A DNA stretch of 62,381 nucleotides from Cephalothrix simula (lineage: Eukaryota > Nemertea > Palaeonemertea > Archinemertea > Cephalotrichidae). A program made the translations under genes and the position numbers. Numbering within the stretch: position 1 is the stretch's first letter; each line of letters starts with the position of its first letter. The notes under the pieces are model-generated. The model saw only the letters and a program-made list of their open reading frames with translations. It did not search any database and was not told the origin of the DNA. The stretch spans positions 1 through 62,381 of the forward strand of contig JAXIUW010033341.1 in assembly GCA_035591015.1 (NCBI GenBank). The letters are read 5' to 3'. Below, piece by piece: positions 28,460-61,729 of this stretch.

Positions 28460-30862
<2,403 letters not shown>

Positions 30863-31486: not shown

Positions 31487-32225
31487 CTGCGCAAAGCCGA
31501 TGAGCCGACCACTACGTCCAACGAACTATGCGCTGTAATGGTTGCTGATTTGTAGCACCGCCTCTGGCCATCGCTACAATCTTAGGTGGTAATGCTCACC
31601 GCTCTTGAGCTGGTAAGCCCTATGCCACCGCATTAACTCTCCCAGTGCAATCGGCTACTAGAATTAATGTCCACAACATCTCCATACTCCCAAACTTTGC
31701 AACAACTGAGTTCGTGAACGGTTAGGTGATTATTTTGCAATGACTATTATTCTGAACACGACTCGCTGCTACCGCCGCTGCGAATTTGTTGTTCAAGCAA
31801 ATGGTTTTTAGATAGACACCCAACGCCCTACCAACATAGCCTCGCTCTAAGTTATACAAAGTCAACGGTGTAAATATCAACCTCTGCTGACAAAGCTGCT
31901 GGACTTGGCTTGCAACGAGCCGGCTTAGATTTAGGCAATTGCGTTAATATCAAAATAAATCATGATGATAAACCATTGCCTCAAGGTCAAATGCTTCAGG
32001 CTTTTTAATTAGAATTACGCACCGAAGTCTATCTCTTTAGGCAAGCGATGCTTCTGATGTGAAAGAGCTTCTATCAACCCTCAATCTTGTCGGGTTTTCG
32101 CCTACTGAAATAACTCTTTTTCAGTGCCTAAGAATAATGTTTATCTGTAAAATTGTTCTTGTCTATCGGCGATTATTGTGCCATACTGCGCTATCTTTTT
32201 AACTGTACAATTATGGAGCTTAATA
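31487..32225. other. Gene-poor stretch with a decayed coding region at about 31,877-32,130
   Basis: In the plus strand near 31,890-32,130 a broken frame reads DKAAGLGLQRAGLDLGNCVN, then after a stop LELRTEVYLFRQA, and after a one-base shift VKELLSTLNLVGFSPTEITL. The protein-like composition with stops and shifts suggests a dead gene; I do not recognise the family. The rest of the stretch shows nothing. Confidence 0.45.
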
Positions 32226-33800
32226 ATGATTCGTTTTCTTGTCACTTGCATTACGGCAATCTCAGTAATGTTTGGAATATCGTCAAATGTTCTAGCCAAA
32301 GATTTGATAATTGGTGTGAAAGCCGAGATTTCTGCTGCAGATCCGCATGTTTTATTCGGACCGAACCGTAACATTGGTGGTCAGGTTTACGAGCCGTTGT
32401 TCAAAACCGATGATGCGCAAAAACCCATTCCCGGAATGGTAGAGAATTGGAAAACACTTAATCCGAAACTTTATGAGTTCAAGCTGCGCAAGGGAGTTAA
32501 GTTTCATGATGGCACAACGCTAACCTCGGAAGATGTAAAGTTTTCTATTGATAGAGCACTTACTTTAGACAATCCCCGTACATTTAGGACTTATCTAAGC
32601 AATGTTGATAGTGTTGAGATTGTAAATGACAATACCTTCCGTATTCATACTAAAGAGCCAACGGCATTGCTGGTTAATAATCTATCAACTATGGGCATTG
32701 TCTCTAAAGCCAGCGCAGAGAATGCCAACGAAAACGCCTTTGCCGGTGGTAAAGTGGCCGGTGCTGGCCCCTATCGCTGGGTTAGCTATACACCGGGTGA
32801 TAGTGTTGTGCTAGAGGCCTTTGCTGATTACTGGGGTGGTGCTCCAACCTTTGACAGAGTTATCTACAAGTTTATCAGCAATGATTCAACTCGTGTTGCA
32901 GCCCTGTTATCTGGCGATGTGCAGATAATTGATGAAGTTCCCCCAACCTTAATTGACCGCCTTAAAGCCGATAAAAATATTGAAGTATTTTCGGGTGTTT
33001 CGTACATGCTGATCTATGTGGGCATGGATCAACACCGTGATGTGTCGCAATATGTTAAAGGGTTGGATGGCGAAGAAATCCCCAATCCATTCTTAGATGT
33101 TCGTGTTCGTAAGGCCATGTCGCTCTTAATTAATCGCGAGCTTATTAAAGACCGTATCATGAGCGACATGTCTGCTCCGTCGGGGCAGTTTGTACCCAAA
33201 GGCATGGTGGGTCATGTTGAGGGCATGGAGCCAGACCCCTACGATGTTGCCAGAGCTAAAGAATTATTGACCGAGGCCGGCTATCCCGATGGTTTTAGAC
33301 TTACCATTCATTGCACCAACGACCGGTATATGAATGATGACAAAATCTGCGAAGCCATGGGACAGTTGTTATCAGCCGGTGGAATCCCTACCGAAGTTCA
33401 AACCATACCTAGATCGGTTTATTTTCGGCGAGCATCGTCAGGTGGCCCCAACGGAGAACCAGAGTTTAGCTTTTTTATGGTCGGTATGGGTCCAGCCAAC
33501 GGTGTAGCCGATGCGGCCGTTAAAGCGTTGGCAAAAACCAGAGACAAAGCTGGTAACGGTGCCAACAACCGTGCACGATATTCTAATCCAAAGGTTGATA
33601 ACTTGGCATCTTTAGCTGCCAAAGAAATTGACCCAGAACGGCGTGAAGAATTACTGACCGAGGCCACCAAGCTAGCCATTGATGAGGTTGCGGTTATGCC
33701 TTTGCACCATCAATTTGGCATTTGGGCTGCTCGCAAAGGTTATACACTTAGGCCACGCACCGATGTGTTTAACCGTGCTGAAAATGTTACTCAAAAATAA
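32226..33800 (+). CDS. Peptide/opine-type ABC transporter substrate-binding protein
   Basis: 524 residues from the ATG at 32,226, which has GGAG 8 bases upstream; a longer frame from 32,178 would spoil the signal peptide. The signal peptide ends near VLAKD. The mature part is an SBP_bac_5 protein: VYEPLFKTD, PGMVENWK, LRKGVKFHDGTTLTSEDVKF and a C-terminal PLHHQFGIWA. It delivers its ligand to the permease pair and ATPases that follow. Family members bind oligopeptides, opines, nickel chelates or sugars, so the ligand is unknown. A strong hairpin lies directly after the gene. Confidence 0.92.
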   Translation: MIRFLVTCITAISVMFGISSNVLAKDLIIGVKAEISAADPHVLFGPNRNIGGQVYEPLFKTDDAQKPIPGMVENWKTLNPKLYEFKLRKGVKFHDGTTLTSEDVKFSIDRALTLDNPRTFRTYLSNVDSVEIVNDNTFRIHTKEPTALLVNNLSTMGIVSKASAENANENAFAGGKVAGAGPYRWVSYTPGDSVVLEAFADYWGGAPTFDRVIYKFISNDSTRVAALLSGDVQIIDEVPPTLIDRLKADKNIEVFSGVSYMLIYVGMDQHRDVSQYVKGLDGEEIPNPFLDVRVRKAMSLLINRELIKDRIMSDMSAPSGQFVPKGMVGHVEGMEPDPYDVARAKELLTEAGYPDGFRLTIHCTNDRYMNDDKICEAMGQLLSAGGIPTEVQTIPRSVYFRRASSGGPNGEPEFSFFMVGMGPANGVADAAVKALAKTRDKAGNGANNRARYSNPKVDNLASLAAKEIDPERREELLTEATKLAIDEVAVMPLHHQFGIWAARKGYTLRPRTDVFNRAENVTQK

Positions 33801-33812
33801 GTAACCTTGCTT

Positions 33813-33843
33813 GATCCTGCCCCTAAGTCTTCTGGGCAGGGTC
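33813..33843 (+). terminator. Stem-loop after the binding-protein gene
   Basis: GATCCTGCCC (33,813-33,822) pairs with GGGCAGGGTC (33,834-33,843), ten pairs with one G-T, around an 11-base loop. No T-run follows. Between a binding-protein gene and its permease genes such hairpins commonly act as partial terminators or 3'-end stabilisers, so that the binding protein is made in excess; that role is inference. Confidence 0.6.
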
Positions 33844-33941
33844 GCTTGGTGCAACTTATGACTTATAACTTATATTATAATTTTTAACAGATACCCTCCC
33901 CTCTTCTATACACACATATAGAATACTAAGAGACGCAAGAC

Positions 33942-34919
33942 ATGACTGAATTTCTCATCAGACGACTTTTGACGGCCAGCTTTGTCGTATTAGCAATGAT
34001 GGTTATCGTGTTCTTTGGCTTCAACGTGATTGGTGACCCGGTTTACTTGCTGGTTGACCCTCAGGCAACGCAAGCTCAAATTGAAGCGGCTCGCGCCTCA
34101 TTAGGACTTGACCAGCCGCTATACACTCAGTTTTGGAATTTCTTTGTGCGTGCCTTTGAGGGCGATTTGGGTAACAGCTTTGTTTTTGGAAGGCCAGTTG
34201 TTGATGTTATTTTAGAGCGACTTCCAGCAACTCTTGAGTTGGCTTTTTGCGCCTTCATGATTACCATACTCATCAGTATTCCGCTAGGTCTTTATGCTGG
34301 TCTACGGCCAAAATCTAAGATTTCTAAGGCCATCATGGCCGGTTCTATTTTTGGGTTTTCGCTACCGAGTTTTTGGGTAGGCATTGTGCTTATTCTTATT
34401 TTTTCGGTAACTTTGGGCTGGCTTCCCGCCACTGGTCGGGGCGATACGGTAGACGTTTTAGGAATACCAATCAGCTTTCTGACTTGGGACGGTCTAAAGC
34501 ATATTATTCTGCCGGCCATAAATCTTTCTTTGTTCAAAGCTGCGCTTATCACACGCCTTGTGCGAGCCGGAACGGTTGAGATTACCGGCCAAGACTACAT
34601 TAAATTTGCACGAGCCAAGGGCGTTTCTGGCTTGCGGTTGGTTGTTTTGCATGTTGGCAAAAACGTGATGATTCCCGTGGTAACCGTGATGGGCATTGAG
34701 CTAGGGCGTCTTATTGCATTTGCCGTAGTTACCGAAACTATTTTTTCTTGGCCGGGTATTGGCAAGCTGCTTATTGAGAGCATCCTCAATTTAGATCGCC
34801 CGGTCGTGGTCGCCTACCTAATGATGATCACCGTAATTTTCGTTATCATCAACATTGTTGTTGATATTCTTTATGTTTGGCTGGATCCTCGCATCCGTCT
34901 TGGCAGTCAAGCTCAGTAA
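33942..34919 (+). CDS. ABC transporter permease, DppB/OppB-type
   Basis: 325 residues, six membrane segments. The N-terminal MTEFLIRRLLTASFVVLAMM and the following GDPVYLLVDPQAT segment are typical of DppB-type subunits. The EAA-loop lies in DYIKFARAKGVSGLRLVVLHV, and the C-terminal ETIFSWPGIGKLLIESI is a family hallmark. It forms the pore with the next gene product in the inner membrane. The gap to the next gene is 16 bases. Confidence 0.92.
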   Translation: MTEFLIRRLLTASFVVLAMMVIVFFGFNVIGDPVYLLVDPQATQAQIEAARASLGLDQPLYTQFWNFFVRAFEGDLGNSFVFGRPVVDVILERLPATLELAFCAFMITILISIPLGLYAGLRPKSKISKAIMAGSIFGFSLPSFWVGIVLILIFSVTLGWLPATGRGDTVDVLGIPISFLTWDGLKHIILPAINLSLFKAALITRLVRAGTVEITGQDYIKFARAKGVSGLRLVVLHVGKNVMIPVVTVMGIELGRLIAFAVVTETIFSWPGIGKLLIESILNLDRPVVVAYLMMITVIFVIINIVVDILYVWLDPRIRLGSQAQ

Positions 34920-34935
34920 TCAGTAAGAGGACGGT

Positions 34936-35817
34936 ATGCAACAAGAATCTTCTTTCTTCAGCAAACTAAAACACTTTGCCGAAAGCCCCTTGGCTGTGAT
35001 GGCACTAGTCTTGTTGACTATCTTTCCGATCATCGCCCTTTTTGCGCCCTTTATTGCTCCGCAAGACCCCTATGATCTATCAACCGTTTCTATAATGAAC
35101 GGACGCCTTACTCCCGGCTCACAAGATTTTACCGGAAGCATGACCTTCATTTTAGGCACTGATGAAGCTGGCCGAGACCTGTTTAGTGCCATCCTCTACG
35201 GGCTGCGTATTTCAATTTTTATCGGCGTGGTCAGTGCAGTTATCGGCGCAGTTATCGGCTCATCGCTAGGGTTGGCAGCGGCATATTTTGGCGGTCGTAC
35301 AGAGTCAATAATTATGCGTGTGGTTGACTTACAGCTTAGCTTTCCGGCCATCCTAATTGCCTTGGTATTACTAGCCACGCTCGGGCAGGGCATTGATAAG
35401 GTTCTTATCGCTCTTATCGTTGTGCAGTGGGCGTATTATGCTCGTACCGTCCGTGGCGTTGCTTTGGCTGAAAACTCTAAAGATTATGTGGCAGCAGCAA
35501 AATCTCAGGGATTGCCACCCATCAAAATCATGTTCAGGCATGTCCTGCCTAATTGCTTGCCACCGCTGTTGGTTATTCTTACGGTGCAGTCGGCGCATGC
35601 TATCACCTTAGAGGCCACACTTAGCTTTTTGGGGCTGGGACTGCCAAAAACACAGCCATCGCTGGGGCTTTTAATCGCCAATGGTTTTGAGTTCATGCTC
35701 AGCTATGAATACTGGATTGCAATTTATCCCGGTGTAGCATTGCTACTTCTGGTGCTGAGTATCAATCTTGTTGGCGACCGCCTGCGTGATGTTTTTAACC
35801 CGAGAATGGTGCGCTAA
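34936..35817 (+). CDS. ABC transporter permease, DppC/OppC-type
   Basis: 293 residues. An N-terminal helix precedes the periplasmic segment ending in ILGTDEAGRDLFSAILYGLR, the DppC hallmark. The EAA-loop is KDYVAAAKSQGLPPIKIMFRH, and LSFLGLGLPKTQPSLG follows near the end. It pairs with the DppB-type subunit before it. The next gene begins 1 base after its stop codon. Confidence 0.92.
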   Translation: MQQESSFFSKLKHFAESPLAVMALVLLTIFPIIALFAPFIAPQDPYDLSTVSIMNGRLTPGSQDFTGSMTFILGTDEAGRDLFSAILYGLRISIFIGVVSAVIGAVIGSSLGLAAAYFGGRTESIIMRVVDLQLSFPAILIALVLLATLGQGIDKVLIALIVVQWAYYARTVRGVALAENSKDYVAAAKSQGLPPIKIMFRHVLPNCLPPLLVILTVQSAHAITLEATLSFLGLGLPKTQPSLGLLIANGFEFMLSYEYWIAIYPGVALLLLVLSINLVGDRLRDVFNPRMVR

Positions 35818-35818
35818 C

Positions 35819-36808
35819 ATGACCGAGTATGCATTAGAAGTCTGCGGTTTGCAGACACAGTTTTCAGGCAAAGGCTGGCTGGCCAAGGCCGTTGATGGCA
35901 TCGATATCAACGTGCGTAAAGGCGAAATTGTGGGGCTTGTTGGTGAAAGTGGCTCTGGCAAAACGGTAGCCGGCTTCTCAATTATGGGTCTAATTGACCC
36001 GCCCGGCAAGATTGCAGCCGGTTCCGTAAAACTAAATGGCACCGAACTACGCCAACTGTCTGATAGAGCCATTGCCAAGCTACGGGGCAATAAGATGGCC
36101 ATGGTCTTTCAAGACCCGTTGATGACGCTTAATCCGGTACTCAGAATTGATACTCAGATGGTTGAGGCCATCCGCCTCCATCGCCAAATGCCCAAAGCCA
36201 AAGCTCTGAAACTGGCTGAACAAAGCTTGGCTAATGTGGGTATTCCGTCACCGGCCGAGCGGCTGAAGAGCTATCCGCACGAATTATCGGGCGGAATGCG
36301 CCAGCGTGTAGCGATTGCAATTGCTCTGCTTAACGAACCCGAGCTGATTATTGCTGACGAACCAACCACGGCTCTTGATGTTACCATTCAGGCGCAAATT
36401 CTTTATTTAATTCAGAATCTTGCCAAAGACCGCAACACAGGACTAATTTGGATTACACATGACCTTGGAGTTGCTGCCGAAATCTCAGAGCGGATTGCAG
36501 TTATGTATGCCGGGCGCATTGTTGAAGAAGGCCCTACTGATGATGTGCTTGATCGCCCCCAACACCCGTATACGGAAGGTTTGCTAAAATCTCTGCCTGA
36601 AGGCCAAGAACCAAAGGGGCGGCTTTACCAAATCTCGGGCATGACCCCGTCTTTAACCAACCTGCCTCAGGGTTGCCCCTTTGCGCCTCGCTGCGCCAAG
36701 GCAACTGATATTTGTAATACACTGCCTGAAGAAACCCGTGTCGGCAATATACGCTTCCGCTGTCATCATCCGGCGCATCTTCCACAAGCCACTAAGGAGA
36801 ACCAATGA
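35819..36808 (+). CDS. ABC transporter ATPase, DppD/OppD-type
   Basis: 330 residues from the ATG at 35,819, directly after the permease stop; a longer frame from 35,768 overlaps that gene and is unlikely. Walker A is GESGSGKT, the signature is LSGGMRQRV, Walker B is [12 protein letters not shown] and the H-loop is ITHD. The C-terminal oligopeptide-type Cys cluster is present ([15 protein letters not shown]), which in this family can bind an iron-sulfur cluster. It energises the importer with the next ATPase, whose start overlaps by 4 bases. Confidence 0.92.
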
Positions 36809-37800
36809 GCTTTCTTGATGTACGTGGTCTAAAAAAAACCTTCGCCAAGCAACCCGACCTAATTGCCCGCGGACTGCGGGCTATGAACGTACAAACTAAC
36901 ATTCCACCCGTTGTTCAGGCTGTGCGTGAGGCCTCTTTTGCTATCAATGAGGGCGAAATACTGGGTTTAATCGGCGAGTCTGGCTGTGGCAAATCTACGA
37001 TTGCCCGCATGTTAGCGGGTATAACCGCTCCTACGGCCGGCTCAATCACCTTAGATGGGCATGATATAGTCGGCTTGAATACGGCCGAAGCCCGAGCAGC
37101 AGCGATGGATATTCAAATGGTCTTCCAAGATGCCGCCGCAGCCATGAACCCTCGCTATAAGGTGCAAGATATTATCGCCGAAGCACCAGTTTATCATGGT
37201 CGGATGAAGGCTTCTGAAGCGGAGTCTAAGGTTGCCGAAGTGCTGGAGGCTGTCAGCATGGGTGCCGATGTTTCCAAGCGCTTTCCTCATCAGTTTTCTG
37301 GCGGACAACGTCAGCGCATTGGTATTGCTCGGGCGTTGGCTATGAATCCACGGCTGCTGATTTGCGATGAACCTGTCGCAGCTCTTGATGTATCAATTCA
37401 GGCACAGGTCATTAATCTTTTTCTTAATCTGCGTGACAAATTTAACCTGACTTATGTATTTATTAGCCACGATTTATCCGTTGTGCGCCATATTTCAGAC
37501 CGTGTCGCCATTATGTATTTGGGTGAAATCGTAGAAAGCGCAACTACCGCAGAGATTTTTGCCAATCCGCAGCATCCGTATACGCAGGCACTGATGTCGC
37601 AGAATCCATCAATTTCTAATCGCCACAAGGTGCATACGCCACTTGAAGGCGAGGTGCCATCACCAATCAATCCGCCATCGGGCTGCTATTTTCATCCCCG
37701 CTGCTCTAAGGCCACCGACCGCTGCCGTGTTGAACACCCCGAGCTAAGAACCATTGGAGGCGCACAAGTTGCCTGCCATCTAGCCAAAGCCAGCCCATGA
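36805..37800 (+). CDS. ABC transporter ATPase, DppF/OppF-type
   Basis: 331 residues. Walker A GESGCGKS, signature FSGGQRQRIGIARAL, Walker B LLICDEPVAALD, H-loop ISHDLSVVRH, and the C-terminal Cys motif GCYFHPRCSKATDRC. An insertion of about 30 residues before the Walker A (QPDLIARGLRAMNVQTNIPP) is longer than usual for DppF. The gene reads intact through an A8 run at about 36,831. The next gene overlaps by 4 bases, linking the importer to an amidohydrolase. Confidence 0.92.
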   Translation: MSFLDVRGLKKTFAKQPDLIARGLRAMNVQTNIPPVVQAVREASFAINEGEILGLIGESGCGKSTIARMLAGITAPTAGSITLDGHDIVGLNTAEARAAAMDIQMVFQDAAAAMNPRYKVQDIIAEAPVYHGRMKASEAESKVAEVLEAVSMGADVSKRFPHQFSGGQRQRIGIARALAMNPRLLICDEPVAALDVSIQAQVINLFLNLRDKFNLTYVFISHDLSVVRHISDRVAIMYLGEIVESATTAEIFANPQHPYTQALMSQNPSISNRHKVHTPLEGEVPSPINPPSGCYFHPRCSKATDRCRVEHPELRTIGGAQVACHLAKASP

Positions 37801-38654: not shown

Positions 38655-38872
38655 GAAGTTTTTTGCGACTTAGCATGGTTCTGAATTCCTAGCCCTCACG
38701 GCTAAACTCAGCGTGGCTTGCCTCTATCTCTAGCTCTTCATCGCTAAACCCTGCGTAGCCTGTACCTGCTATGAAATCCATTGAGCATGAGGAATGCTTG
38801 TGTCGGTGGGTGTTTGCTATCAAAAAAATAGAACTGTGGCAGTTTTGGCAAGTTTTGCTTAGATTGAATACG
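38655..38872. other. Upstream part of a 545-base intergenic region
   Basis: No gene seen. Short minus-strand frames here lack coding character. The regulatory-looking elements of the region lie further right, at 38,873-38,910 and 39,145-39,176. Confidence 0.5.
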
Positions 38873-38910
38873 CTTGCAAATTCTTGCATTCGCTTGCAAA
38901 CTGTTATACT
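38873..38910 (+). promoter_or_regulatory. Three 10-bp-phased CTTGCAWW repeats next to a -10 box
   Basis: CTTGCAAA (38,873), CTTGCATT (38,883) and CTTGCAAA (38,893) are spaced exactly ten bases apart, one helical turn. They run into TATACT at 38,905-38,910. TTGCAT (38,884-38,889) could serve as a -35 box with a 15-base spacer. The array lies about 290 bases upstream of the HpsN-type gene. The exact phasing suggests a protein-binding iteron set overlapping a promoter. Confidence 0.5.
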
Positions 38911-39199: not shown

Positions 39200-40510
39200 A
39201 TGGCAATTAAATGGCTTAAAGAAGGTAAGGCAGAATCTGATAAAGCGGCAGATGATGCTGAGACTAGAACAATAGTTGAAGCCACCTTGGCGCAAATCAA
39301 AACTGGTGGAGACGCCGCAGTTCGTGAACTAGCAGCAAAATTTGATAACTACACTCCGCAGTCATTCCGCTTAACCGAGCAGCAAATTCAAGCCAGCATC
39401 GCTAAGGTGTCTAGCAGAGACTTAGACGATATTAAGTTTGCTCAAGAACAAATTCGCAACTTTGCACAGGCTCAGCGTGATGCTCTGCAAGATATTGAAG
39501 TAGAGCCCATTCCCGGAGTAATCTTGGGGCATAAAAACATACCGGTTCAATCAGTGGGCTGCTATGTTCCGAGCGGAAAGTTTCCTATGGTCGCCTCAGC
39601 TCATATGTCGGTGGCCACGGCCAGCGTTGCCGGCGTACCGCGCATCGTTGCTTGCACTCCACCTTTTAAGGGTGAGCCTAATCCGGCCGTCATCGCTGCT
39701 ATACATCTTGGTGGAGCGCATGAAATTTATGTACTCGGCGGCATTCAAGCGGTTGGAGCTATGGCTTTGGGCACCGAAACCATCAAGCCCGTTCATTTAT
39801 TAGTTGGTCCCGGAAACGCCTTTGTGGCCGAGGCCAAGCGTCAGTTATTCGGCAAAGTAGGCATTGATTTACTGGCTGGCCCAACCGAAACCATGCTCGT
39901 TGCCGATGAAACCGTAGACGGCGAACTGTGCGCCACAGACTTATTAGGCCAAGCCGAACACGGCTATAACTCGCCGGCTTGTTTGGTAACTAATTCTCAT
40001 AAATTGGCTGAAGATACCTTGGCCGAAGTAGAGCGTCTGTTGAAGATTTTACCCACCGCCGAGACGGCCGCCATTAGTTGGCGAGATTATGGCGAGGTTA
40101 TACTGTGCGATAGCTACGAAGAAATGCTGGAAGTCTCTGAAGATAAAGCCTATGAACACGTGCAGGTAATGACTGATCGTGATGATTGGTTCTTAGAAAA
40201 TATGACTTGCTACGGCGGACTGTTTTTGGGCGCACGCACCAATGTTTCTAATGGCGATAAAGTTATTGGCACTAATCATACTTTACCCACCAAAAAAGCC
40301 GGCCGCTATACCGGCGGTTTATGGGTCGGCAAGTACCTTAAAACTCACAGCTATCAAAAAATCACCACCGATGAAGCCGCAGCTAAAATTGGTGAATATG
40401 GCTCACGGCTATGTATGCTTGAGGGCTTTGTTGGCCATGCCGAGCAATGTAATATTCGTGTAAGACGCTATGGTCATAAAGATGTTCCCTATGGCACCGG
40501 GGCGCAATAA
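39200..40510 (+). CDS. Histidinol-dehydrogenase-family alcohol dehydrogenase, HpsN-type
   Basis: 436 residues. HisD-family zinc ligands and catalytic residues are kept: Gln and His in LLGQAEHG, the catalytic Glu-His in YEHVQVMT, the Asp in GDKVIGTNH and the C-terminal His in EGFVGHAEQ. The segment [20 protein letters not shown] and the ending NIRVRRYG are those of the HpsN (sulfopropanediol 3-dehydrogenase) branch rather than biosynthetic HisD. No other his gene is near. It probably oxidises a primary alcohol to a carboxylate in two NAD-linked steps. The substrate here is unknown: no sulfolactate-degrading gene (suyAB) is present, so a DHPS role is only one option. Confidence 0.85.
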
Positions 40511-40530
40511 ATGTTTACTACTATGAACTT

Positions 40531-41580
40531 ATGAACGATTGCGCAAAGGCTAAACAAAACATTATTCAGCTTTGCCTCAGTATGCAGAACTTTGAGGCTG
40601 GCAGTGTTCACAAGGCGTTGCACAATTTTTTGGCAGCGGAATGCGTGATGCATATGCCTTATCCACTAGGCGATATGCTGGGTGCCGATGCCTTCTATAA
40701 TAATTGCTATGCGGGCTTGTTCAAGGCTCTGCCAGACTTGGAGCGGCGAGATTGGATAATCATTGCCGGAGAATCTGAACACGGAGACATTTGGGTTGGC
40801 TGTGGTGGCCATTACGTAGGCACCTTTGTAGCACCGTGGTTAGACATCCCACCTAATGGGCATTTTTCACATTTGCGCTTTCATGAATTCTATCGCTTTC
40901 AAGGCAATAAAGTGGTTGAAATACAGGCACTTTGGGATATTCCAGAATTAATGTTACAGGCTAATGCGTGGCCGATGACGCCCTCTTTAGGCAGAGAAGG
41001 TTTAGTGCCGCCTCCATCAACTATGGATGGCATTACTGATGAGCCTGCCGACACCAAAAAATCACAAGCTAGTCGTAAGATTGTTCTTGATATGCTTAAG
41101 CATTTGTCTTTGCATCCTCGCCACGGTGGCCCAGAGGTTATGCAGTTAGAGCGGTTTTGGCACCAACGCATGACTTGGTATGGTCCGGCTGGCATTGGTA
41201 CGTGTAGAGGCATTGCCGGCTTTCGTAACTGGCATCAAATACCATTTTTGAACGCCATGCCCGACCGTGGCCATTATGATGATGAACTAACCTTACACTT
41301 TATTAGTGAAGGTAATTATGTTGGCTACACTGGCTGGCCAAGCATGAAGCAGACTTTAACTAATAATGGTTGGTTAGGCATTGCGCCCTCTGAACAGTTG
41401 ATTACCATCCGATGTTTAGATTTTTGGCGCATTGAAAATGAAAAAATTAAAGAAAACTGGGTGCTGATTGATCTACTAGATGTTTATCAGCAGATTGGTG
41501 TTGATGTGCTTGGGCGAATGCGTGAGTTTAACAAGGCTCGCACTTTAAGCACTATATCCTTTCCGATGAGAGAGATTTAA
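40531..41580 (+). CDS. Tandem NTF2/SnoaL-like protein A
   Basis: 349 residues made of two SnoaL/NTF2-like domains (about 5-150 and 185-340). The first contains GDIWVGCGGHYVGTFVAPWL and DIPELMLQANAWP; the second contains WYGPAGIGTCRGIAGFRNWH and GWPSMKQT, ending ENWVLIDLLDVYQQIG. Single-domain relatives include polyketide cyclases, dehydratases and delta-isomerase-like enzymes. Conserved His, Trp and Asp residues suggest an enzyme. It starts 20 bases after the HpsN-type gene and its stop overlaps the SDR start (TAATG). It is clearly related to protein C at 46,870. Confidence 0.8.
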   Translation: MNDCAKAKQNIIQLCLSMQNFEAGSVHKALHNFLAAECVMHMPYPLGDMLGADAFYNNCYAGLFKALPDLERRDWIIIAGESEHGDIWVGCGGHYVGTFVAPWLDIPPNGHFSHLRFHEFYRFQGNKVVEIQALWDIPELMLQANAWPMTPSLGREGLVPPPSTMDGITDEPADTKKSQASRKIVLDMLKHLSLHPRHGGPEVMQLERFWHQRMTWYGPAGIGTCRGIAGFRNWHQIPFLNAMPDRGHYDDELTLHFISEGNYVGYTGWPSMKQTLTNNGWLGIAPSEQLITIRCLDFWRIENEKIKENWVLIDLLDVYQQIGVDVLGRMREFNKARTLSTISFPMREI

Positions 41581-42344
41581 TGGAACTACCGGCCTCACCA
41601 AATTTTTCATTACACAATAAGCGAGCGTTGATTGTTGGTGCTTCATCGGGCATTGGTCTAGCCTGTGCGGTAGAACTTGCCAGAGCTGGTGCTCATGTAA
41701 CCGTAGCGGCACGACGCTTAAATTTATTGCAAGAATTAGTAAGCAGTTTAAGGCAAGAAGGGCTTAAAGCTGATTTTATTCAGATTGATGTTAGTGATGT
41801 ATCAGCTACCGCAGCTACTTTGCAACAGGTTGAAGTATTTGACGTATTAGTCAATAGTGCGGGAACGGCTGAGCATGGTCCAGCCTTAGAAACTAAGCCA
41901 GAAGATTATGACTATGTGATGAACATTAATCTGCGTGGTGCTTACTTTTTAACTCGTGAAGTGGCTAAGGGATTAATACAGGCGAACAAGCCCGGCTCAT
42001 TAATTAATATTAGTTCGCAAATGGCTCATATTGGAGGCATTGACAGAGCCGTCTACTGTGCCAGCAAGTTTGCGCTAGAGGGCATGACTAAGGTTATGGC
42101 TATTGAATGGGGTTCACTAGGCATTCGGGTTAATACGGTTTGCCCAACTTTTGTTAGCACCGAACTTACTGAAAAAACTTTTAATAATCCCCAGCGCATG
42201 GCTTGGATTAAGTCAAAAATTAAACTTGGACGTGTTGCCGAAGTGCAAGATGTAACGGCTGCCGTGCATTACTTGGCTGCAAATGCCTCAAGTATGGTTA
42301 CCGGAACCAGCATAATCATTGATGGCGGCTGGACAGCTGGCTAA
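41580..42344 (+). CDS. Short-chain dehydrogenase/reductase
   Basis: 254 residues, classical SDR. The cofactor loop is VGASSGIGLA, with AARR at the end of the second strand, which favours NADP(H). The structural motif is NSAG. The catalytic Ser is in NISSQMA and the Tyr-Lys pair is YCASK. The C-terminus GTSIIIDGGWTAG is typical of 3-oxoacyl-ACP-reductase-like and polyol SDRs. In this cluster it probably interconverts a secondary alcohol and ketone of the unknown substrate. Confidence 0.9.
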   Translation: MELPASPNFSLHNKRALIVGASSGIGLACAVELARAGAHVTVAARRLNLLQELVSSLRQEGLKADFIQIDVSDVSATAATLQQVEVFDVLVNSAGTAEHGPALETKPEDYDYVMNINLRGAYFLTREVAKGLIQANKPGSLINISSQMAHIGGIDRAVYCASKFALEGMTKVMAIEWGSLGIRVNTVCPTFVSTELTEKTFNNPQRMAWIKSKIKLGRVAEVQDVTAAVHYLAANASSMVTGTSIIIDGGWTAG

Positions 42345-42363
42345 TCTTGCGAAAACGTTCACT

Positions 42364-43383
42364 ATGACCATCAAAATCACTTCTCAGGATGTCGCTAAAT
42401 TAGCCGGTGTTAGTCAGTCTGCCGTATCTAGAGTTTTTACGCCCGGAGCTTCGGCTTCGGCCAAAATGGTATCTCGTGTGCAAGTCGCAGCCAATCAGCT
42501 TGGTTATCGCCCCAACATCATCGCTCGATCATTGATTACCGGCAAAAGCCGCATGATCGGGTTTATTGTTGCCTATCTGAACAACCAGTTTTATCCGGAT
42601 AGCCTGCAAAAACTATCAGAACGCCTACAGCAAGAGGGCTATCATGTTCTAATTTTTATCGTAGAGAACAATAGCCAAACGATACGCAAAACAGTGCAAA
42701 AACTACTAGATTATCAGGTAGATGGAATTGTTGCCGCCTCGGTATCTTTAGCTAGCGGCCTAGCTGAGGCATGCGGTAATGCTGGAGTTCCGCTGACATT
42801 GTACAATCGTTCTGATATTGGCAATAACGTTAGTTATGTAACTAGCAACAACTATCAGGGCGGAATTAAAGTCGCCAATCATTTTGCTGAAATAGGCATT
42901 AAACGCCCGGCATACATTGCTGGTTGGGAAGGCTCTTCTACTCAGCGTGATCGTGAACGAGGTTTTGTTGAAGGACTAAGTAAGCACGGCCTCACTTTAT
43001 TTAGGCGTGGAGTGGGCAACTATACTTTAGAAGGTGCTCAACAAGCCACCCGTGAAATATTTGAGGCAAAGAGCCGACCCGACGGCGTATTTGTCGCTAA
43101 TGATCACATGGCCTTTGCTGTCATGGATGTACTGAGAAGCGAGCTTGGCCTTAGAATACCCGAAGATGTTTGTGTAGCCGGCTATGATGACGTTGAAATT
43201 GCCTCGTGGCCAAGCTATAGCCTCACTTCTGTTCAGCAACCAACTCAAAAAATGGCGACCGCTACCGTTGATGCTTTATTAGACGCAATTAATGACCCTC
43301 ATAAACCAATTGTTCAACTACAAATTGATGGCCATTTAGTAGTGCGCAATTCAACCACCAAGAACAAAAATGAAAAATTTTGA
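42364..43383 (+). CDS. LacI-family transcriptional regulator
   Basis: 339 residues from the ATG at 42,364; a longer frame from 42,319 lies inside the SDR gene. The N-terminal helix-turn-helix is TSQDVAKLAGVSQSAVSRV, followed by the hinge LGYRPNIIARSLITGKS. The periplasmic-binding-like effector domain has FVANDHMAFAVMDVLR and VAGYDDVEIASWPSYSLTSV, typical of the family. It probably senses a pathway intermediate and controls this cluster. The bases just before the start contain AAAACGTTCAC, with the central CG common to LacI sites, which is weak evidence for autoregulation. The end overlaps the next gene by 14 bases. Confidence 0.92.
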   Translation: MTIKITSQDVAKLAGVSQSAVSRVFTPGASASAKMVSRVQVAANQLGYRPNIIARSLITGKSRMIGFIVAYLNNQFYPDSLQKLSERLQQEGYHVLIFIVENNSQTIRKTVQKLLDYQVDGIVAASVSLASGLAEACGNAGVPLTLYNRSDIGNNVSYVTSNNYQGGIKVANHFAEIGIKRPAYIAGWEGSSTQRDRERGFVEGLSKHGLTLFRRGVGNYTLEGAQQATREIFEAKSRPDGVFVANDHMAFAVMDVLRSELGLRIPEDVCVAGYDDVEIASWPSYSLTSVQQPTQKMATATVDALLDAINDPHKPIVQLQIDGHLVVRNSTTKNKNEKF

Positions 43384-44338
43384 TAAAAAGTTCAATGACT
43401 TCCCCGATTACATCATCGGCATTACCAAAGAAATTTGGGAAGATTACAACATAGAATCTTTGTATAAATATTATGGCAAAGATATAGTGGTGCGCTCACC
43501 AAAATCAATAACCGTAGGTTGTAAAAGCGTAATTGATGCTACCTTAGCTACTTTATCTGAGTTTCCAGATCGGAAGCTACTGGCAGAAGACGTAATTTGG
43601 AGCGGCAATGAAGATGACGGAATGCTTTCTTCGCATCGTATTGTCTCTACGGCAAGGCATCTCGGTGATGGAGCGTATGGCAAAGCCACTGGTAAATTTG
43701 TATGCTACCGCGTTATTGCTGACTGCTATGCAATCAATAACACCATTACCGATGAGTGGCTAATCCGTGACCAAGGTGCCATTATCAGGCAAATTGGCTG
43801 TGACCCGAAAGAATACGCCATCAATCTGATTGAGCTAGAGGGCGGCCACGAAAAATGTGTAAAACCCTTTACTCCAAGCATTGACCAAGCCGGTCCGTAC
43901 CAAAGCCGAGGCAATGACAACCCTTGGGGGCAAAAATACGCTGATATTCTTAGTGGCATCATGGCTGCTGATACGGCCCTAATCAAAAAAGAGTACGATC
44001 GGGCTTGTAGTGTAAGTTATTCTGGCGACATAGAAGACCATTCTTATGAGGCAGTTAGTCGCTTTTGGATGGGTCTGCGAGCCAGTTTTCCAAATGCCAA
44101 ATTTAGTATTGAGCATCAAATTGGTCGTGAAGACCCGCTAATGCCACCCCGATCTGCCATTAGATTTGGATTACACGGTAAGCATGATGGCTGGGGCTTA
44201 TTTGGCTGCCCGACCGGTGCCGAAGTTTACATTATGGGAGCGGCTCATGCCGAGTTTGGGCCGTGGGGCTTGCGTCGTGAATATGCATTATTTGATGAAG
44301 CCTCTATTTGGAAGCAAATAGCCTTGCAAACAGGTTAA
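43370..44338 (+). CDS. Tandem NTF2/SnoaL-like protein B
   Basis: 322 residues, two NTF2-like domains (about 15-145 and 185-315). The first has the 'ester cyclase' look: EIWEDYNIESLYKYYGKDIV and ITDEWLIRDQGAI. The second has DHSYEAVSRFWMGLRASFPN and HGKHDGWGLFGCPTGAEVY. It is more distant from proteins A and C than those two are from each other. It overlaps the LacI gene by 14 bases. The role is unknown; the presence of three such proteins suggests successive cyclase, dehydratase or isomerase steps, or a multimeric complex. Confidence 0.75.
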   Translation: MKNFDKKFNDFPDYIIGITKEIWEDYNIESLYKYYGKDIVVRSPKSITVGCKSVIDATLATLSEFPDRKLLAEDVIWSGNEDDGMLSSHRIVSTARHLGDGAYGKATGKFVCYRVIADCYAINNTITDEWLIRDQGAIIRQIGCDPKEYAINLIELEGGHEKCVKPFTPSIDQAGPYQSRGNDNPWGQKYADILSGIMAADTALIKKEYDRACSVSYSGDIEDHSYEAVSRFWMGLRASFPNAKFSIEHQIGREDPLMPPRSAIRFGLHGKHDGWGLFGCPTGAEVYIMGAAHAEFGPWGLRREYALFDEASIWKQIALQTG

Positions 44339-44379
44339 TTCTTAATGAAATGCACAAAAAATAACACTGCTTTTCTAAG

Positions 44380-44512
44380 GGTAATCTTAAAGGCAATCTC
44401 AAAGGATTGTCTCAAAGGGTAATACCAAAAGTTAAATTGAAAGATAATCTCAAAGATAATTTGGAAAAATAATTTGGAAAGGTAATCTCAAAAAAATAAA
44501 TCAAAAGATAAA
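44380..44512. repeat. Degenerate 12-13 bp repeat run in the cluster
   Basis: The spacer between protein B and the bicupin gene consists of about ten units of 12-13 bases of the type GGTAATCTCAAA (GGCAATCTCAAA, GATAATCTCAAA, GATAATTTGGAAA and others). It is AT-rich with stops in all frames, so it is not coding. It splits the cluster into two halves and reaches up to the ribosome-binding region of the bicupin gene. Confidence 0.75.
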
Positions 44513-44514
44513 TT

Positions 44515-45471
44515 ATGGAACAACCACAAATCGTTCGCTACGGAGAATTAAAGCCCTGCCGAACTGCTTTTATTGATACTCATACCCCCGGTTCTGATCT
44601 AAAAGAGAACTTTACAATTATCGGCGGCGGAGTATCTGAAAGCCCAGATCAACACGTGCATATTAATGCTACTCCCGGCTTTAATATTGGTGCAGCTGGT
44701 CAACCGCCAAAGTGCTTTAATTCTTTGCATTACCATAACACCGCCGAGGTTTTTTTTGTTTTGAAAGGCCGCTGGCGATTTTTTTGGGGTCTACACGGCA
44801 CTGCCGGTGAAGTAATTATGGAAGAAGGCGATATTTTTAATATTCCAACCCGTATCTTTAGGGGCTTTGAAAATGTAGGCTACGATTATGGCATGATTAT
44901 GTCTATTCTGGGCGGAGATGACTCTGGTGGCGGCGTTATTTGGGCTCCGCATGTTCTGGATACCGCTAATGCCCATGGCTTGGTATTAAGTGAAAAAGGC
45001 GTTATCTACGACACCAAAAAGGGTGAAAAACTGCCTCCCGGAGTAGCTCGTATGTCAAAGTTGACCGATGAGCAATTAGCCGAAATTCCTGAAGTTCCTG
45101 CATCTAAGGTTATTCCTAGTTATGTGCGCCGCTATTGGGATATGGTGGCTTTGGCCAAATCTGCCCCCTGTGACGTTATTAGTGAGACGGGACTCATCAA
45201 AGACAAGCCCGGCTTTCGTGTTGAGCTTTTGTCGCGCGATTCTATTAGTAGTGCAGAATATGTCAATCCGCAGCATGAAGTGCTGATTGTTATGCGTGGT
45301 AACTGGAATTTATCGTGGCAAAATCAATCAGTGGTGCTTAATCCGGGCGACACTTGCTGGATACCTCCGAGCTTGGCGCATAGTTTCTATGCCTGCGTAA
45401 CGGGAGAGTCTAGCATCTATCGCATTAGCAAAACCGATGACCCCGCTGGTCTTACTTGGACTGGTAACTAA
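44515..45471 (+). CDS. Two-domain cupin protein
   Basis: 318 residues with two beta-barrels. The first barrel has LHYHNTAEVFFVLKGRWRFF, giving a His-x-His and a Glu metal site, and GDIFNIPTRIFRGFEN. The second has PQHEVLIVMRGNWNLSW and GDTCWIPPSLAHSFY. The barrels are separated by about 110 residues. The layout resembles bicupin dioxygenases and isomerases acting on cyclic or dicarbonyl compounds, but the reaction cannot be told. An oxygenase or isomerase role in the surrounding catabolic cluster is inference. Confidence 0.8.
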   Translation: MEQPQIVRYGELKPCRTAFIDTHTPGSDLKENFTIIGGGVSESPDQHVHINATPGFNIGAAGQPPKCFNSLHYHNTAEVFFVLKGRWRFFWGLHGTAGEVIMEEGDIFNIPTRIFRGFENVGYDYGMIMSILGGDDSGGGVIWAPHVLDTANAHGLVLSEKGVIYDTKKGEKLPPGVARMSKLTDEQLAEIPEVPASKVIPSYVRRYWDMVALAKSAPCDVISETGLIKDKPGFRVELLSRDSISSAEYVNPQHEVLIVMRGNWNLSWQNQSVVLNPGDTCWIPPSLAHSFYACVTGESSIYRISKTDDPAGLTWTGN

Positions 45472-45474
45472 CAC

Positions 45475-46161
45475 ATGGCCTTAGTATTATTGCCAGGCAT
45501 GATGTGCGACCAGAGCGTGTTTGAACACCAAATTGCCCACTTTAGCAGCATGCAAACAATAGTTGTACCCAATTATGGCGAGGCTGAGACAATTAACGGC
45601 ATGGCCTTATCTGTATTAGAGCAGGCTCCATCTAGGTTTGCTCTGCTAGGCTTTTCAATGGGGGGCATTGTTGCTATGGAAGTCTTCCGTATAGCTCCAC
45701 AGCGCATCACTCGCCTCGCTCTTTTAGACACTAATCCAAAAGCAGAATTAAAAAGTACTCAACTACAACGAGATGTTCAGATTAAAACCGTTTTGTCTGG
45801 AGGCTTAGCGCAGGTAATGACCGAAGAGATGTTTCCGCTTTATTTCGCAGAGAACACTGAAGTTAAACATCTTTCTAACAAGTGCCTTGCCATGGCTATG
45901 GCTTTGGGTAGCGAAGCCTTTATTAGACAATCACGAGCTTTGCAGCAACGAGCTGACCAAACCGAAGCTCTAAGGATGGTCCAAGTACCCACACTGATTA
46001 TGATGGGCGCAGAAGATAGGCTTTGCCCCCTTGACCGGCACGAACTACTCGCCGAATTAATCCCGCAATCGCAATTGGTAATCGTGCCTAATGCTGGGCA
46101 TATGATTACTCTTGAACAACCCGATTTTGTGAACGAGGCACTTGATAAATGGCTCAATTAA
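45475..46161 (+). CDS. Alpha/beta hydrolase
   Basis: 228 residues. The oxyanion strand is LVLLPGMMCDQSVF, the nucleophile elbow GFSMGG, the acid Asp in MGAEDRLCP and the catalytic His in NAGHMITLEQP, so the triad is complete. It is short for the fold, with a small cap. It probably opens an ester or lactone in the pathway, which would fit ring-forming or ring-opening chemistry by the NTF2-like neighbours. It begins 4 bases after the bicupin gene and overlaps the next gene by 13 bases. Confidence 0.88.
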   Translation: MALVLLPGMMCDQSVFEHQIAHFSSMQTIVVPNYGEAETINGMALSVLEQAPSRFALLGFSMGGIVAMEVFRIAPQRITRLALLDTNPKAELKSTQLQRDVQIKTVLSGGLAQVMTEEMFPLYFAENTEVKHLSNKCLAMAMALGSEAFIRQSRALQQRADQTEALRMVQVPTLIMMGAEDRLCPLDRHELLAELIPQSQLVIVPNAGHMITLEQPDFVNEALDKWLN

Positions 46162-46859
46162 AATTAGATGAAAATCTTTTTAAGCTCTTGCAAAAGATTG
46201 ATACTCCTACGGTTTGCAATTCTATTGAAGTTGCTCAAGGCCAACGTGGCTTCAACCGCTTCACTAAAAGTACGGTGCTGTGCTCAGACCCCACCGGTGG
46301 TGCCATTGTTGGCTATGCACGCACGGCGCAAATTGCGGCCAGCAATCCTCCGCAAGCTGACCCGAACGATGTGCGCTCAATACGCATGGCCTATTATCAA
46401 TATATGGCAGAGAGTCCCCAGCCCAGTGTGGTCGTAATAGAAGATATTGACTACCCCCATGCGGTCGGCGCCTATTGGGGAGAAATTAATTCTGCGGTGC
46501 ATAAGGCCTTCGGCTTAAATGGCACTCTCACCAATGGTGTAATGCGTGATTTAGGTGATTTGCCCGATAATTTTCCTATTATTGCTGGCTCAATCGGCCC
46601 TAGTCATGGCTTTGTGCATGTTCTCAACTTTGATAAACCGGTAACGGTGTTTGATCTGCAAATATGTCCCGGAGAGCTGATTCATGCCGATCGTCATGGT
46701 GCTGTAGTTATTCCTAAAGATATTATTCCTGCACTTTATGATGCCATTCAAAAACTTCTGCAAACCGAGCAGCTAGTTTTAGAACCTGCTCGCCAAGAAG
46801 GCTTTGATTTTTCTAAATTCAAAGCTGCTTGGACAGCCTTTGAAAAAAGCAGAACGTAA
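46149..46859 (+). CDS. RraA-like / HMG-aldolase-family protein
   Basis: 236 residues of the RraA fold. The opening IDTPTVCNSIE is like the DTPTV(C/S)DA motif, and the catalytic region reads YWGEINSAVHKAFG and GTLTNGVMRDL, keeping the Arg-Asp pair used for substrate and metal binding in 4-hydroxy-4-methyl-2-oxoglutarate aldolases. The usual Asp before the Gly of the motif is Asn. Enzyme members cleave 2-oxo acids to pyruvate, whereas RraA itself inhibits RNase E. The catabolic neighbourhood favours an aldolase or decarboxylase yielding pyruvate as the last step. Confidence 0.82.
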   Translation: MAQLKLDENLFKLLQKIDTPTVCNSIEVAQGQRGFNRFTKSTVLCSDPTGGAIVGYARTAQIAASNPPQADPNDVRSIRMAYYQYMAESPQPSVVVIEDIDYPHAVGAYWGEINSAVHKAFGLNGTLTNGVMRDLGDLPDNFPIIAGSIGPSHGFVHVLNFDKPVTVFDLQICPGELIHADRHGAVVIPKDIIPALYDAIQKLLQTEQLVLEPARQEGFDFSKFKAAWTAFEKSRT

Positions 46860-46869
46860 TAAAACATAG

Positions 46870-47880
46870 ATGAGCAAGCAAATTCAATCTGCTAAACAGC
46901 TGATATTAAAATATTATCAAGAGCTAGACCATGCCGATGCTCTTAACCTAAAGCAGGTTATGCAGCCGTTTATAGCATCAAAATATTTATGGCGTGGTTA
47001 TCATCCCTTCAATGAGCAAACCAGTGTGGCCAATGTAGCCAATTTATTTTGGAGACCACTGCGCCAAGCATTTAAGCATCTGCAACGCCGCCAAGATATT
47101 TTTATGGCTGGCGTCAATCGCTTGCCAAACAGCGATGACGGTATTTGGGTAGTTTCTATGGGGCATTTGATGGGGCTCTTTGATGAACCTTGGCTAGGCA
47201 TTGCTCCAACAAGAAAGCTGGCTTTCTTACGCTACTGCGAATTCAATAAGGTTGAGCAAAACTCAATTACTGAAACGGCGTTATTCTTTGATATTCCTCA
47301 TGTTATGTTGCAGGCGGGGCTTAATCCCTTTCCACCAATGACCGGCGCACAGCTGGTGCAGCCCGGACCGCAGACTCATAGCGGACTAATGTATGCTGAA
47401 GCTGACCCGAGCGCAGGCGATAAAACTATGGCCGTGATTAACTCTATGGTCAAAGATGTTAGGCGTTGGAGCAAAGACATACCCCTTATAGATGAGCTTC
47501 GGCGAAGCTGGTGCGAAGATATGCTATGGTGGGGACCCACCGGCATCGGCTCAACCTACACCATTGAGCGTTATGCTCAACAACACTCGGGTGTTTTTAG
47601 AGCAACCTTTAAGAATAGAATTTTCAATGGTCATCTCTGCCGAATCGCCGAGGGGGAATTTGGCGGCTTCTTTGGCTGGCCTAACATTATAATAGAGCCT
47701 CTAGGCGGATTTATGGGTATGCCAGCCACTGGAAAATCAGGAGAAATGCGGGTAATTGATATTTATCGCCGATCTGGTGACAAGCTCGCCGAAAACTGGA
47801 TATTTATAGACTTCCTACACTTTTGGAAGCAGCAGGGACTAGATATTTTAGAGCGAATGGCGCAGTTTCCCCGCACCTAA
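46870..47880 (+). CDS. Tandem NTF2/SnoaL-like protein C
   Basis: 336 residues, two NTF2-like domains, homologous to protein A over its full length. The paired segments are GIWVVSMGHLMGLFDEPWLG (A: DIWV-GGHYVGTF-PWLD), FFDIPHVMLQAGLNPFPP (A: WDIPELMLQANAWP) and WWGPTGIGSTYTIERY (A: WYGPAGIGTCRGI). The ending ENWIFIDFLHFWKQQGLDIL matches A's. A and C may be paralogues that act on related intermediates or form a hetero-oligomer. It starts 11 bases after the RraA-like gene. Confidence 0.8.
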   Translation: MSKQIQSAKQLILKYYQELDHADALNLKQVMQPFIASKYLWRGYHPFNEQTSVANVANLFWRPLRQAFKHLQRRQDIFMAGVNRLPNSDDGIWVVSMGHLMGLFDEPWLGIAPTRKLAFLRYCEFNKVEQNSITETALFFDIPHVMLQAGLNPFPPMTGAQLVQPGPQTHSGLMYAEADPSAGDKTMAVINSMVKDVRRWSKDIPLIDELRRSWCEDMLWWGPTGIGSTYTIERYAQQHSGVFRATFKNRIFNGHLCRIAEGEFGGFFGWPNIIIEPLGGFMGMPATGKSGEMRVIDIYRRSGDKLAENWIFIDFLHFWKQQGLDILERMAQFPRT

Positions 47881-48020
47881 TGGCTTGAAACCTTGCCCGC
47901 AACTTCGCATCAGAAGCGATTAACATGCTTCAACAGTCTGTTGCAACATACTCGCAAATCGGCTATCCTCAACTACCCAATTCGGACATTGGATTCAACA
48001 ACCAAGCCATGGAGCAAGCA

Positions 48021-48311
48021 ATGAGCAATCAATTAGCCCAACAGAAACTAGCCTCAACATTAATCAAAATTGGAGTTGCAATTGTTGTTGCAGCACTCTT
48101 ATGGTTTTTTTGGTATGTGCAAGAGCTATTAGGTGGCTTTAGTGAATTTGAGTTTGAGATGCTGGCCTGTATTTTTACTTCATCCGGTGAGTGTGGTGTT
48201 GCGGCCTCAATAGCTTCCTTGTTCAGCAGCTTCGTCTACAGCCCCTTTGTAATGTGGTTAGGGCTTGCGCTAGTCGCCATAGGTGTGGTGCTAAAGAAAA
48301 TTAGTCGCTAA
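48021..48311 (+). CDS. Small two-helix membrane protein
   Basis: About 96 residues from the ATG at 48,021, which has GGAG 7 bases upstream; a frame from 47,925 would add 32 residues. Two hydrophobic helices (STLIKIGVAIVVAALLWFFW and FVMWLGLALVAIGVVL) flank a loop of about 40 residues with two Cys. No family recognised. As the last plus-strand gene of the cluster it may be an accessory subunit or unrelated. Confidence 0.6.
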   Translation: MSNQLAQQKLASTLIKIGVAIVVAALLWFFWYVQELLGGFSEFEFEMLACIFTSSGECGVAASIASLFSSFVYSPFVMWLGLALVAIGVVLKKISR

Positions 48312-50460: not shown

Positions 50461-50463
50461 GCA

Positions 50464-51357: not shown

Positions 51358-51360
51358 AGC

Positions 51361-52368: not shown

Positions 52369-52389
52369 AGTCGCTCTCGCTAGGTTAGC

Positions 52390-61711: not shown

Positions 61712-61729
61712 TCGGTCGTGGAAGCAAGG

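Follow-up and report, generated by a model that had tools for sequence, protein, structure and literature searches.

This locus raises the question of what is done by a set of genes that joins three tandem NTF2/SnoaL proteins to a HisD-like dehydrogenase, a bicupin and an RraA-like protein, and on what kind of compound it acts. In the window, by which we mean the whole 62,381-nucleotide stretch of DNA analysed, a nine-gene unit running from hisD to NTF2 tandem C occupies 39200-47880 on the plus strand, and all genes named in the first-pass annotation were found within 39200-48311 (Table 1). That annotation had spoken of nine genes but listed ten; all ten are present, and the unit is taken here as nine. 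Intergenic distances, from hisD to the gene for tandem C, were 20, -1, 19, -14, 176, 3, -13 and 10 bases, counted with the LacI start moved by homology to the ATG at 42364 in place of the TTG-started frame 42319-43383. Seven of the eight junctions therefore overlap or span no more than 25 bases, which bears out the close packing originally described. The 128-aa membrane protein, formerly counted as part of the cluster, has no Pfam family and was dropped from the unit, as it had no match in 80 related loci at an E-value of 1e-6. Also considered, and dropped on neighbourhood evidence, was an upstream N-formylglutamate amidohydrolase-like gene (37797-38654); its sole match in LSUCC0387 is separated from the cluster by tens of kilobases, and its match in HTCC2150 is on a different contig from the Dpp genes. 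A promoter scan returned 8 sites, fewer than in shuffled sequence (17.8), and a terminator scan showed no excess (12 against 11.0). As a separate observation, the CarB protein of the window was matched in eight of nine genomes and was 54-59% identical to its alpha- and gammaproteobacterial counterparts alike, with slightly higher bit scores in the latter.

Table 1. Features of the cluster and its surroundings (window positions)
Feature	Position	Strand	Basis or remark
Dpp-type ABC transporter 1 (binding protein, two permeases, two ATPases)	32178..37800	+	possible uptake system of this cluster copy
Second LacI-type operator-like site, TTGAATACGCTTGCAA	38864..38879	+	one mismatch
Predicted LacI operator, TTGCATTCGCTTGCAA	38884..38899	+	consensus from relatives
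HisD-like dehydrogenase, HpsN-related	39200..40510	+	Pfam, residue conservation
NTF2/SnoaL tandem A	40531..41580	+	Pfam, AlphaFold model
SDR oxidoreductase	41580..42344	+	Pfam, S-Y-K residues
LacI-family regulator	42364..43383	+	Pfam; start placed by homology
NTF2/SnoaL tandem B	43370..44338	+	Pfam, conserved residues
Bicupin	44515..45471	+	Pfam, conserved residues
Alpha/beta hydrolase	45475..46161	+	Pfam, S61-D181-H209
RraA-like, class II pyruvate aldolase-type protein	46149..46859	+	Pfam, R133-D134
NTF2/SnoaL tandem C	46870..47880	+	Pfam
Small membrane protein, 128 aa	47925..48311	+	no Pfam family

With tandem B used as the seed, 80 related loci were collected, and the genes for HisD, tandem A, the SDR, LacI and the cupin were all present beside B in 69 of them. 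Tandem C was seen in just 31 of the 80, 27 of which carry it on the opposite strand, at the distal end of the gene set. When the cupin served as the seed, 102 of 248 genomes sampled from a Roseobacter-type family were positive (about two fifths), and in 85 of these the cupin gene lay within 6 kb of B. The expectation that these genes travel together was upheld, although C accompanied them in a minority of loci, and the neighbourhood survey that the first-pass annotation had called for did not find them apart. Its restriction of the cluster to marine alphaproteobacteria did not hold, as related clusters were also found in Vibrionaceae, Halomonas and soil rhizobia; the cluster is a conserved unit across Alpha- and Gammaproteobacteria. 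Relatives usually also carry a CUT1 sugar-type ABC transporter (at least two of its four genes in 68 of the 80 B-seeded loci), a single-domain NTF2 protein (65/80) and a MetE-like protein (63/80), and all three are absent from the window.

For the CUT1 set (SBP_bac_1, two BPD permeases and a MalK/UgpC-type ATPase), the best match in the home assembly reached 28%. Two Dpp-type ABC transporters flank the window cluster, and uptake in this copy would fall to a Dpp-type system in place of CUT1. In LSUCC0387 and HTCC2150, the best genome-wide match to the binding protein of Dpp-type transporter 1 was located directly behind the cluster; in the closest relative it was not, and no operator was found upstream of transporter 1 in the window. 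The link of this transporter to the window cluster is one that we infer. Regulation is suggested by a LacI-type operator-like palindrome, TTGCANNCGNNTGCAA, which recurs upstream in 31 of 40 testable related loci and whose exact form occurs once in the 8.6-Mb home assembly, 300 bp before hisD. The regulator combines a LacI helix-turn-helix with a periplasmic-binding domain (Pfam LacI and Peripla_BP_3), and the operator-like palindrome near its cluster is shared with the related loci. Repression would be exerted through the putative operator TTGCATACGTATGCAA until the compound or a derivative of it binds.

Residues of catalytic type were conserved in the HisD, SDR, hydrolase and RraA-like proteins and in NTF2 proteins A and B. 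The HisD-like protein (Pfam Histidinol_dh, 431.7 bits) keeps Q251, H254, E319, H320, D353 and H413 in 68 of 68 sequences, to which we assign the roles of catalytic Glu-His and metal site presumed from HisD. Equally invariant were the S-Y-K residues of the SDR (adh_short_C2; 73/73), S61-D181-H209 of the alpha/beta hydrolase (Abhydrolase_1; 47/47), H47, H49, H72, H74, E78 and R116 of the bicupin (Cupin_2; 73/73) and R133 and D134 of the RraA-like protein (61/61; 57.5 bits against a Pfam cut-off of 24.5), the last two of which we take to be the Arg-Asp active pair of the family. Tandems A, B and C matched Pfam SnoaL (PF07366) with 76.6, 38.8 and 43.0 bits, respectively (cut-off 28.4), both halves being matched in A alone. 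An AlphaFold model of A (pLDDT 92.7) contains two NTF2 domains, at about residues 3-146 and 175-325. B and C would likewise have two domains, judging from their length, the homology of A and C over both halves and the annotation of homologues, which number 5,803 for B and 5,622 for C at an E-value of 1e-3; among the matches listed, 119 of 120 for each carry precomputed SnoaL and SnoaL_2 annotation. Acid/base-type residues are invariant in A (D136, D314, H118 and H235) and in B (H89, D128 and H272).

Given the gene set, its co-conservation in Alpha- and Gammaproteobacteria, the operator-like palindrome and the usual CUT1 link in relatives, we lean, with moderate confidence, towards an inducible operon for taking up a polyhydroxylated compound, sugar-like and perhaps cyclic, and for breaking it down to pyruvate. 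The HisD-like enzyme would use two NAD-dependent steps to turn a terminal CH2OH into a carboxylate, the SDR would oxidise a secondary alcohol, and the NTF2 tandems may carry out dehydration, isomerisation or ring opening of the KSI/SnoaL/epoxide-hydrolase kind. An enediol or dicarbonyl intermediate would be cleaved or rearranged by the bicupin, the ester or beta-diketone so produced would be split by the alpha/beta hydrolase, and the RraA-like protein would make the last retro-aldol cut to yield pyruvate. The conserved unit looks catabolic, as the first-pass annotation had proposed. That the cluster is the missing pathway by which bacteria consume C7 cyclitols from the gadusol/mycosporine sunscreen family is a highly doubtful extension: HisD would turn the ring CH2OH into a carboxylate, MetE-like or NTF2 proteins would unmask a cyclic reductone, ring opening by the bicupin would give a C7 dioic acid, and an RraA- or HpaI-type aldolase would release pyruvate (C3) and a tetronate-like C4 piece, which the Ensifer adhaerens variant would hand to 3-oxo-tetronate kinase.

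It might also be supposed that the NTF2 proteins are not enzymes and serve the transporter as ligand-binding or scaffold proteins, as would suit minimal loci that retain only the transporter and NTF2 proteins within the stretch seen. The invariance of the acid/base-type residues in A and B and the presence of enzymes among the nearest solved relatives of the NTF2 domains argue against this, however, and it was considered unlikely. Matches to the same domains include polyketide cyclases as well as polyether epoxide hydrolases, and SnoaL genes are interpreted as biosynthetic in the available part of a Pseudovibrio survey (PMC5563371), in line with a cluster whose SnoaL-like cyclases and cupin tailor a polyketide-like secondary metabolite. 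Such a role is nevertheless quite unlikely: the Pfam-scanned proteins, which cover part of the neighbours, included neither a polyketide synthase nor an NRPS nor an acyl carrier, and the importer, LacI, the RraA-like aldolase and a tetronate kinase present in one locus speak for a catabolic function.

In ascorbate-type reductone chemistry, an enediol is cleaved to an oxalyl ester, which leads on to a tetronate. Degradation of such reductones by the cluster, with the bicupin as the enediol-cleaving enzyme, the hydrolase releasing the tetronate from the oxalyl ester and tetronate enzymes completing the route, would accord with the resemblance of the bicupin to quercetinase, gentisate and, weakly, acireductone dioxygenases and with the tetronate kinase and decarboxylase-like genes of one Ensifer locus (L095); it is very unlikely all the same, since it gives no role to HisD, to RraA or to the NTF2 proteins, of which there are three to four, and the third His of the cupin is missing. 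If the HisD protein were an HpsN, the cluster might degrade DHPS or another known organosulfonate, and its NTF2 proteins would be incidental; this would agree with the best PDB sequence match of HisD, sulfopropanediol 3-dehydrogenase (392 bits), (R)-DHPS dehydrogenase being also close. Against it, the triplet R124-Y125-S126 singled out around the catalytic centre of HpsN in the available part of PMC11131964 is replaced by K127-F128-P129 (K in 67, F in 65 and P in 68 of 68 sequences) and the Pfam-scanned proteins included no recognisable sulfonate-cleaving enzyme; this reading is likewise very unlikely.

The degradative operon favoured here was initially called undescribed, and no account of the gene set was found in an open-licence library of papers. 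It is not described in the available parts of PMC5563371 and PMC4052901, and the terms searched did not occur in PMC10130141; homarine, DHPS and sulfonate links were pursued as well, and the search gave no paper on the gene set. In the part of PMC4052901 available, 54 LacI groups are assigned only to unspecified sugar metabolism, and its supplement may list the regulon of the present cluster without a name. Close counterparts of the cluster occur in numerous marine bacteria and in some from soil, and its substrate is probably a compound common to both environments; the link between compound and cluster is absent from the literature searched. Identifying the substrate would name a flow of carbon between bacteria and algae, animals or plants and help to show what thousands of 'ester cyclase' proteins do, many of which bear the names of polyketide enzymes. 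The question is made directly testable by the operator and by the binding protein of the importer.

Among known systems, HpsN shares with the cluster HisD the fold and the catalytic Glu-His and metal-site residues, so the label 'HpsN-type' stands for overall similarity, but not for the active centre, where R-Y-S/A is exchanged for K-F-P; the gene neighbourhood differs too. The bicupin has the fold of gentisate and salicylate 1,2-dioxygenases over its full length at 9 to 18% identity, whereas its cupin 1, read against what we take to be the three-His metal motif, keeps H72 and H74 and has R116 in place of the third His (73/73). The RraA-like protein belongs with the HMG-CHA aldolases (LigK/PcmE) by family and by its invariant R-D pair, but its 30.1 bits fall far below the NCBIfam equivalog cut-off (304.5) for 4-carboxy-4-hydroxy-2-oxoadipate aldolase. 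Genes of the OtnK/OtnC 3-oxo-tetronate pathway stand beside B and a transporter of the same subfamily on the one Ensifer plasmid (L095), and were found neither in 20 further loci queried nor among the window cluster genes. Unlike the SnoaL, AknH, SnoaL2 and AclR polyketide cyclases and hydroxylases (PF07366), the cluster proteins are double-domain, come three to a cluster and have catabolic neighbours, with no polyketide genes seen. A known pathway with three such proteins was not found, as had been claimed, but structures have been solved for earlier examples of tandem NTF2 enzymes, the polyether epoxide hydrolases Lsd19 and MonBI-MonBII. These align end to end with A at 12 to 14% sequence identity, with an rmsd of about 16 Å in relative domain placement against the A model, and in them paired NTF2 domains cooperate, in Lsd19 within one chain, as in the model of A.

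The ten genes claimed by the first-pass annotation were all found, and the domain families that it had guessed were matched by the family profile results. From hisD to the gene for C, the last of the three proteins with paired NTF2/SnoaL-like domains (A, B and C), intergenic spacings were 20, -1, 19, -14, 176, 3, -13 and 10 bases. The LacI gene probably begins at ATG 42364, the homologous start, with TTG 42319 lying too early. Two NTF2 domains were seen in an AlphaFold model of A (mean pLDDT 92.7), the halves of A and C aligned in order (N to N, 29.8% identity; C to C, 28.7%), and among the homologues listed for B, as among those listed for C, 119 of 120 were annotated with both SnoaL and SnoaL_2.

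Features of the window with their coordinates
Feature	Position	Strand	Basis or score
Two adjacent ORFs, 525 aa each, first 60 residues identical	26626-28203, 28460-30037	+	ORF calls
N-formylglutamate amidohydrolase-family gene	37797-38654		FGase 220 bits; HutG 96 of 279
Motif copy, one mismatch	38864-38879		
Motif copy, exact	38884-38899		
Ten-gene cluster	39200-48311	+	
Complete Dpp-type ABC transporter, downstream	48506-53985	-	
Opposed ORFs built from short peptide repeats (QGNRELPC / QGNSLLPC type)	61692-62374	both	ORF calls

With B as the query, related loci were fetched from a genome collection in which each species is represented once. Of 125 confirmed relatives, the best 80 were retained as loci, and their genes were counted by gene calling and then recounted under identity limits. 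B is present by construction in these best 80 of 125, and the counts are approximate and for the most part minimum values, because 19 loci measure less than 20 kb, others stop near the transporter and two (L028 and L029) are twin records. A cupin and an A-type protein each occurred in 75, SDR and LacI each in 73, and HisD in 72, all five together being found in 69. At least three NTF2 proteins were present in 71 of the 80 and at least four in 50; a single-domain NTF2 protein (A2) was found in 65, at least two of the four genes of a sugar-type (CUT1) ABC transporter in 68, a MetE-like protein in 63, RraA in 62, the hydrolase in 47 and C in 31 (on the opposite strand in 27 of these). Tateyamaria-type loci (L020, L030, L032, L033 and similar) carry extra genes within the cluster: PNPOx-like (16 loci), SAM-methyltransferase (16), DUF6653 (13) and GST (four).

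The linkage was tested independently by searching for the cupin in 248 genomes of one family, that of the L006 genome. A full-type match was obtained in 102 (two genomes with short matches alone were set aside), B was present in 106 and both were present in 96, lying within 6 kb of each other in 85 and apart or on separate contigs in 11; the cupin occurred without B in six genomes and B without the cupin in 10, and 94 of 143 B-type matches were near a cupin. Fisher's test gave p ~1e-48 for the association, related genomes not being independent. In a second family, that of locus L043, titled Rhizobium sp. CG5, B was found in 37 of 394 genomes, and among 20 loci fetched from these carriers a cupin was present in 15 and one or more CUT1-type genes in 17. 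The gene set of the claimed cluster, apart from its small membrane-protein gene, does travel together. Full clusters are plasmid-borne in Paracoccus alcaliphilus (p77023), Octadecabacter arcticus (pOA238_160) and, with no SDR match, Marinovum algicola (pMaD9), and a related arrangement is present on plasmid records of Sinorhizobium medicae and Ensifer adhaerens. From these surveys and plasmid records, it was therefore concluded that the cluster spans classes and habitats and is sometimes plasmid-borne. On pMaD9, genes annotated for DMSP demethylation (DmdA and neighbours) follow on the opposite strand (L093 18361-25003). The hisD region of S. medicae pMl3 (L088 10700-12004) has no listed gene and two reading frames, possibly a broken copy, and a record titled Nocardioides marinus DP1N28-1, with a Leisingera-like cluster, is probably mislabelled.

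Conserved residues, numbered as in the window proteins, were kept throughout in HisD (Q251, H254, E319, H320, D353 and H413, each 68/68), SDR (N117, S145/S146, Y159 and K163, 73/73), the hydrolase (S61, D181 and H209, 47/47), RraA (R133 and D134, 61/61), A (D136 and D314, 73/73) and B (H89, D128 and H272, 81/81); their functional roles we assume to be those of their families. The D136 and D314 columns likewise did not vary when 37 A-type and six C-type sequences were aligned. In the bicupin, H72, H74 and E78 are kept, as are H47 and H49, and the third motif histidine is replaced by an invariant arginine (R116).

A scan of intergenic stretches returned one recurring palindrome, TTGCANNCGNNTGCAA, whose centre is CG, as is usual for operators of LacI proteins. 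Exact copies numbered 48, spread over 32 of the 80 loci, and 46 stand immediately before the transporter ATPase gene; among the 40 loci with at least 200 bp available upstream of that gene, 31 had the exact motif there and 33 a copy with at most one mismatch. With the same tolerance, it was found in 16 of 20 further loci and, in S. medicae, before the transporter, cupin and hydrolase. The exact copy in the window, about 300 bp before hisD and with a one-mismatch partner, is the sole one in the 8.6-Mb home assembly. The case for this putative operator rests on the exact match and its conservation, since a two-mismatch search of the window alone gave three hits against 5.1 expected, no better than chance.

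CUT1 genes, the single-domain NTF2 gene and the MetE-like gene were looked for in the window and none was found, nor was a close CUT1 binding protein in the home assembly. The MetE-like gene is optional, as all seven tested genomes lacking it in the cluster had none elsewhere (E 1e-10). Dpp-type transporters lie just upstream and downstream of the window's cluster. The upstream one is a possible replacement importer, because the best genome-wide matches to its binding protein sit directly behind the cluster in LSUCC0387 (34% identical) and HTCC2150 (32%); in the closest relative, L001, the best match is not behind the cluster. An N-formylglutamate amidohydrolase-family gene is attached to the Dpp transporter and is not beside the cluster in LSUCC0387. 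The downstream transporter lies directly behind the cluster and converges on it, its permeases being 37-38% identical to the upstream ones.

Elsewhere in the window, the paired 525-aa ORFs probably arose when a gene for a membrane-type protein was recently duplicated in tandem, and the short-peptide ORFs point to a repeat array where the contig ends. The assembly (580 contigs) may be mixed or the host deep-branching, as the one 16S match listed lies on a different contig (C326) and the CarB of the window is roughly as distant from alphaproteobacteria as from gammaproteobacteria.

A pathway can be proposed in which each step is inferred from protein family and residues. The compound would be imported, oxidised by HisD and SDR, and then dehydrated, isomerised or ring-opened by the NTF2 proteins; the cupin would cleave or rearrange the product, and hydrolysis would precede a last aldol cleavage to pyruvate. 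Two facts steer this proposal: LacI and the relatives' importer are both of sugar type, and on an Ensifer plasmid B and a transporter of the same subfamily (59-73% identical) are accompanied by an aldolase of HpaI/GarL type, a hydrolase, 3-oxo-tetronate kinase and a protein scoring just under the cut-off for 3-oxo-tetronate-4-phosphate decarboxylase. A split into C3 and C4 pieces is hinted at by this one locus. Minimal loci (L092 of Vibrio pelagius, and L043, L051 and L070) keep the transporter and NTF2 proteins with no HisD or cupin in the visible stretch, which suggests that the NTF2 proteins work close to the imported compound. The V. pelagius unit (L092 1-4707) adjoins sarcosine oxidase genes.

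No description of the gene set was found in the open-licence full-text literature searched. The parts belong to known families, but neither the way they are combined nor the recurrence of tandem NTF2 proteins is described in the texts covered; the cluster would be a LacI-linked catabolic operon.
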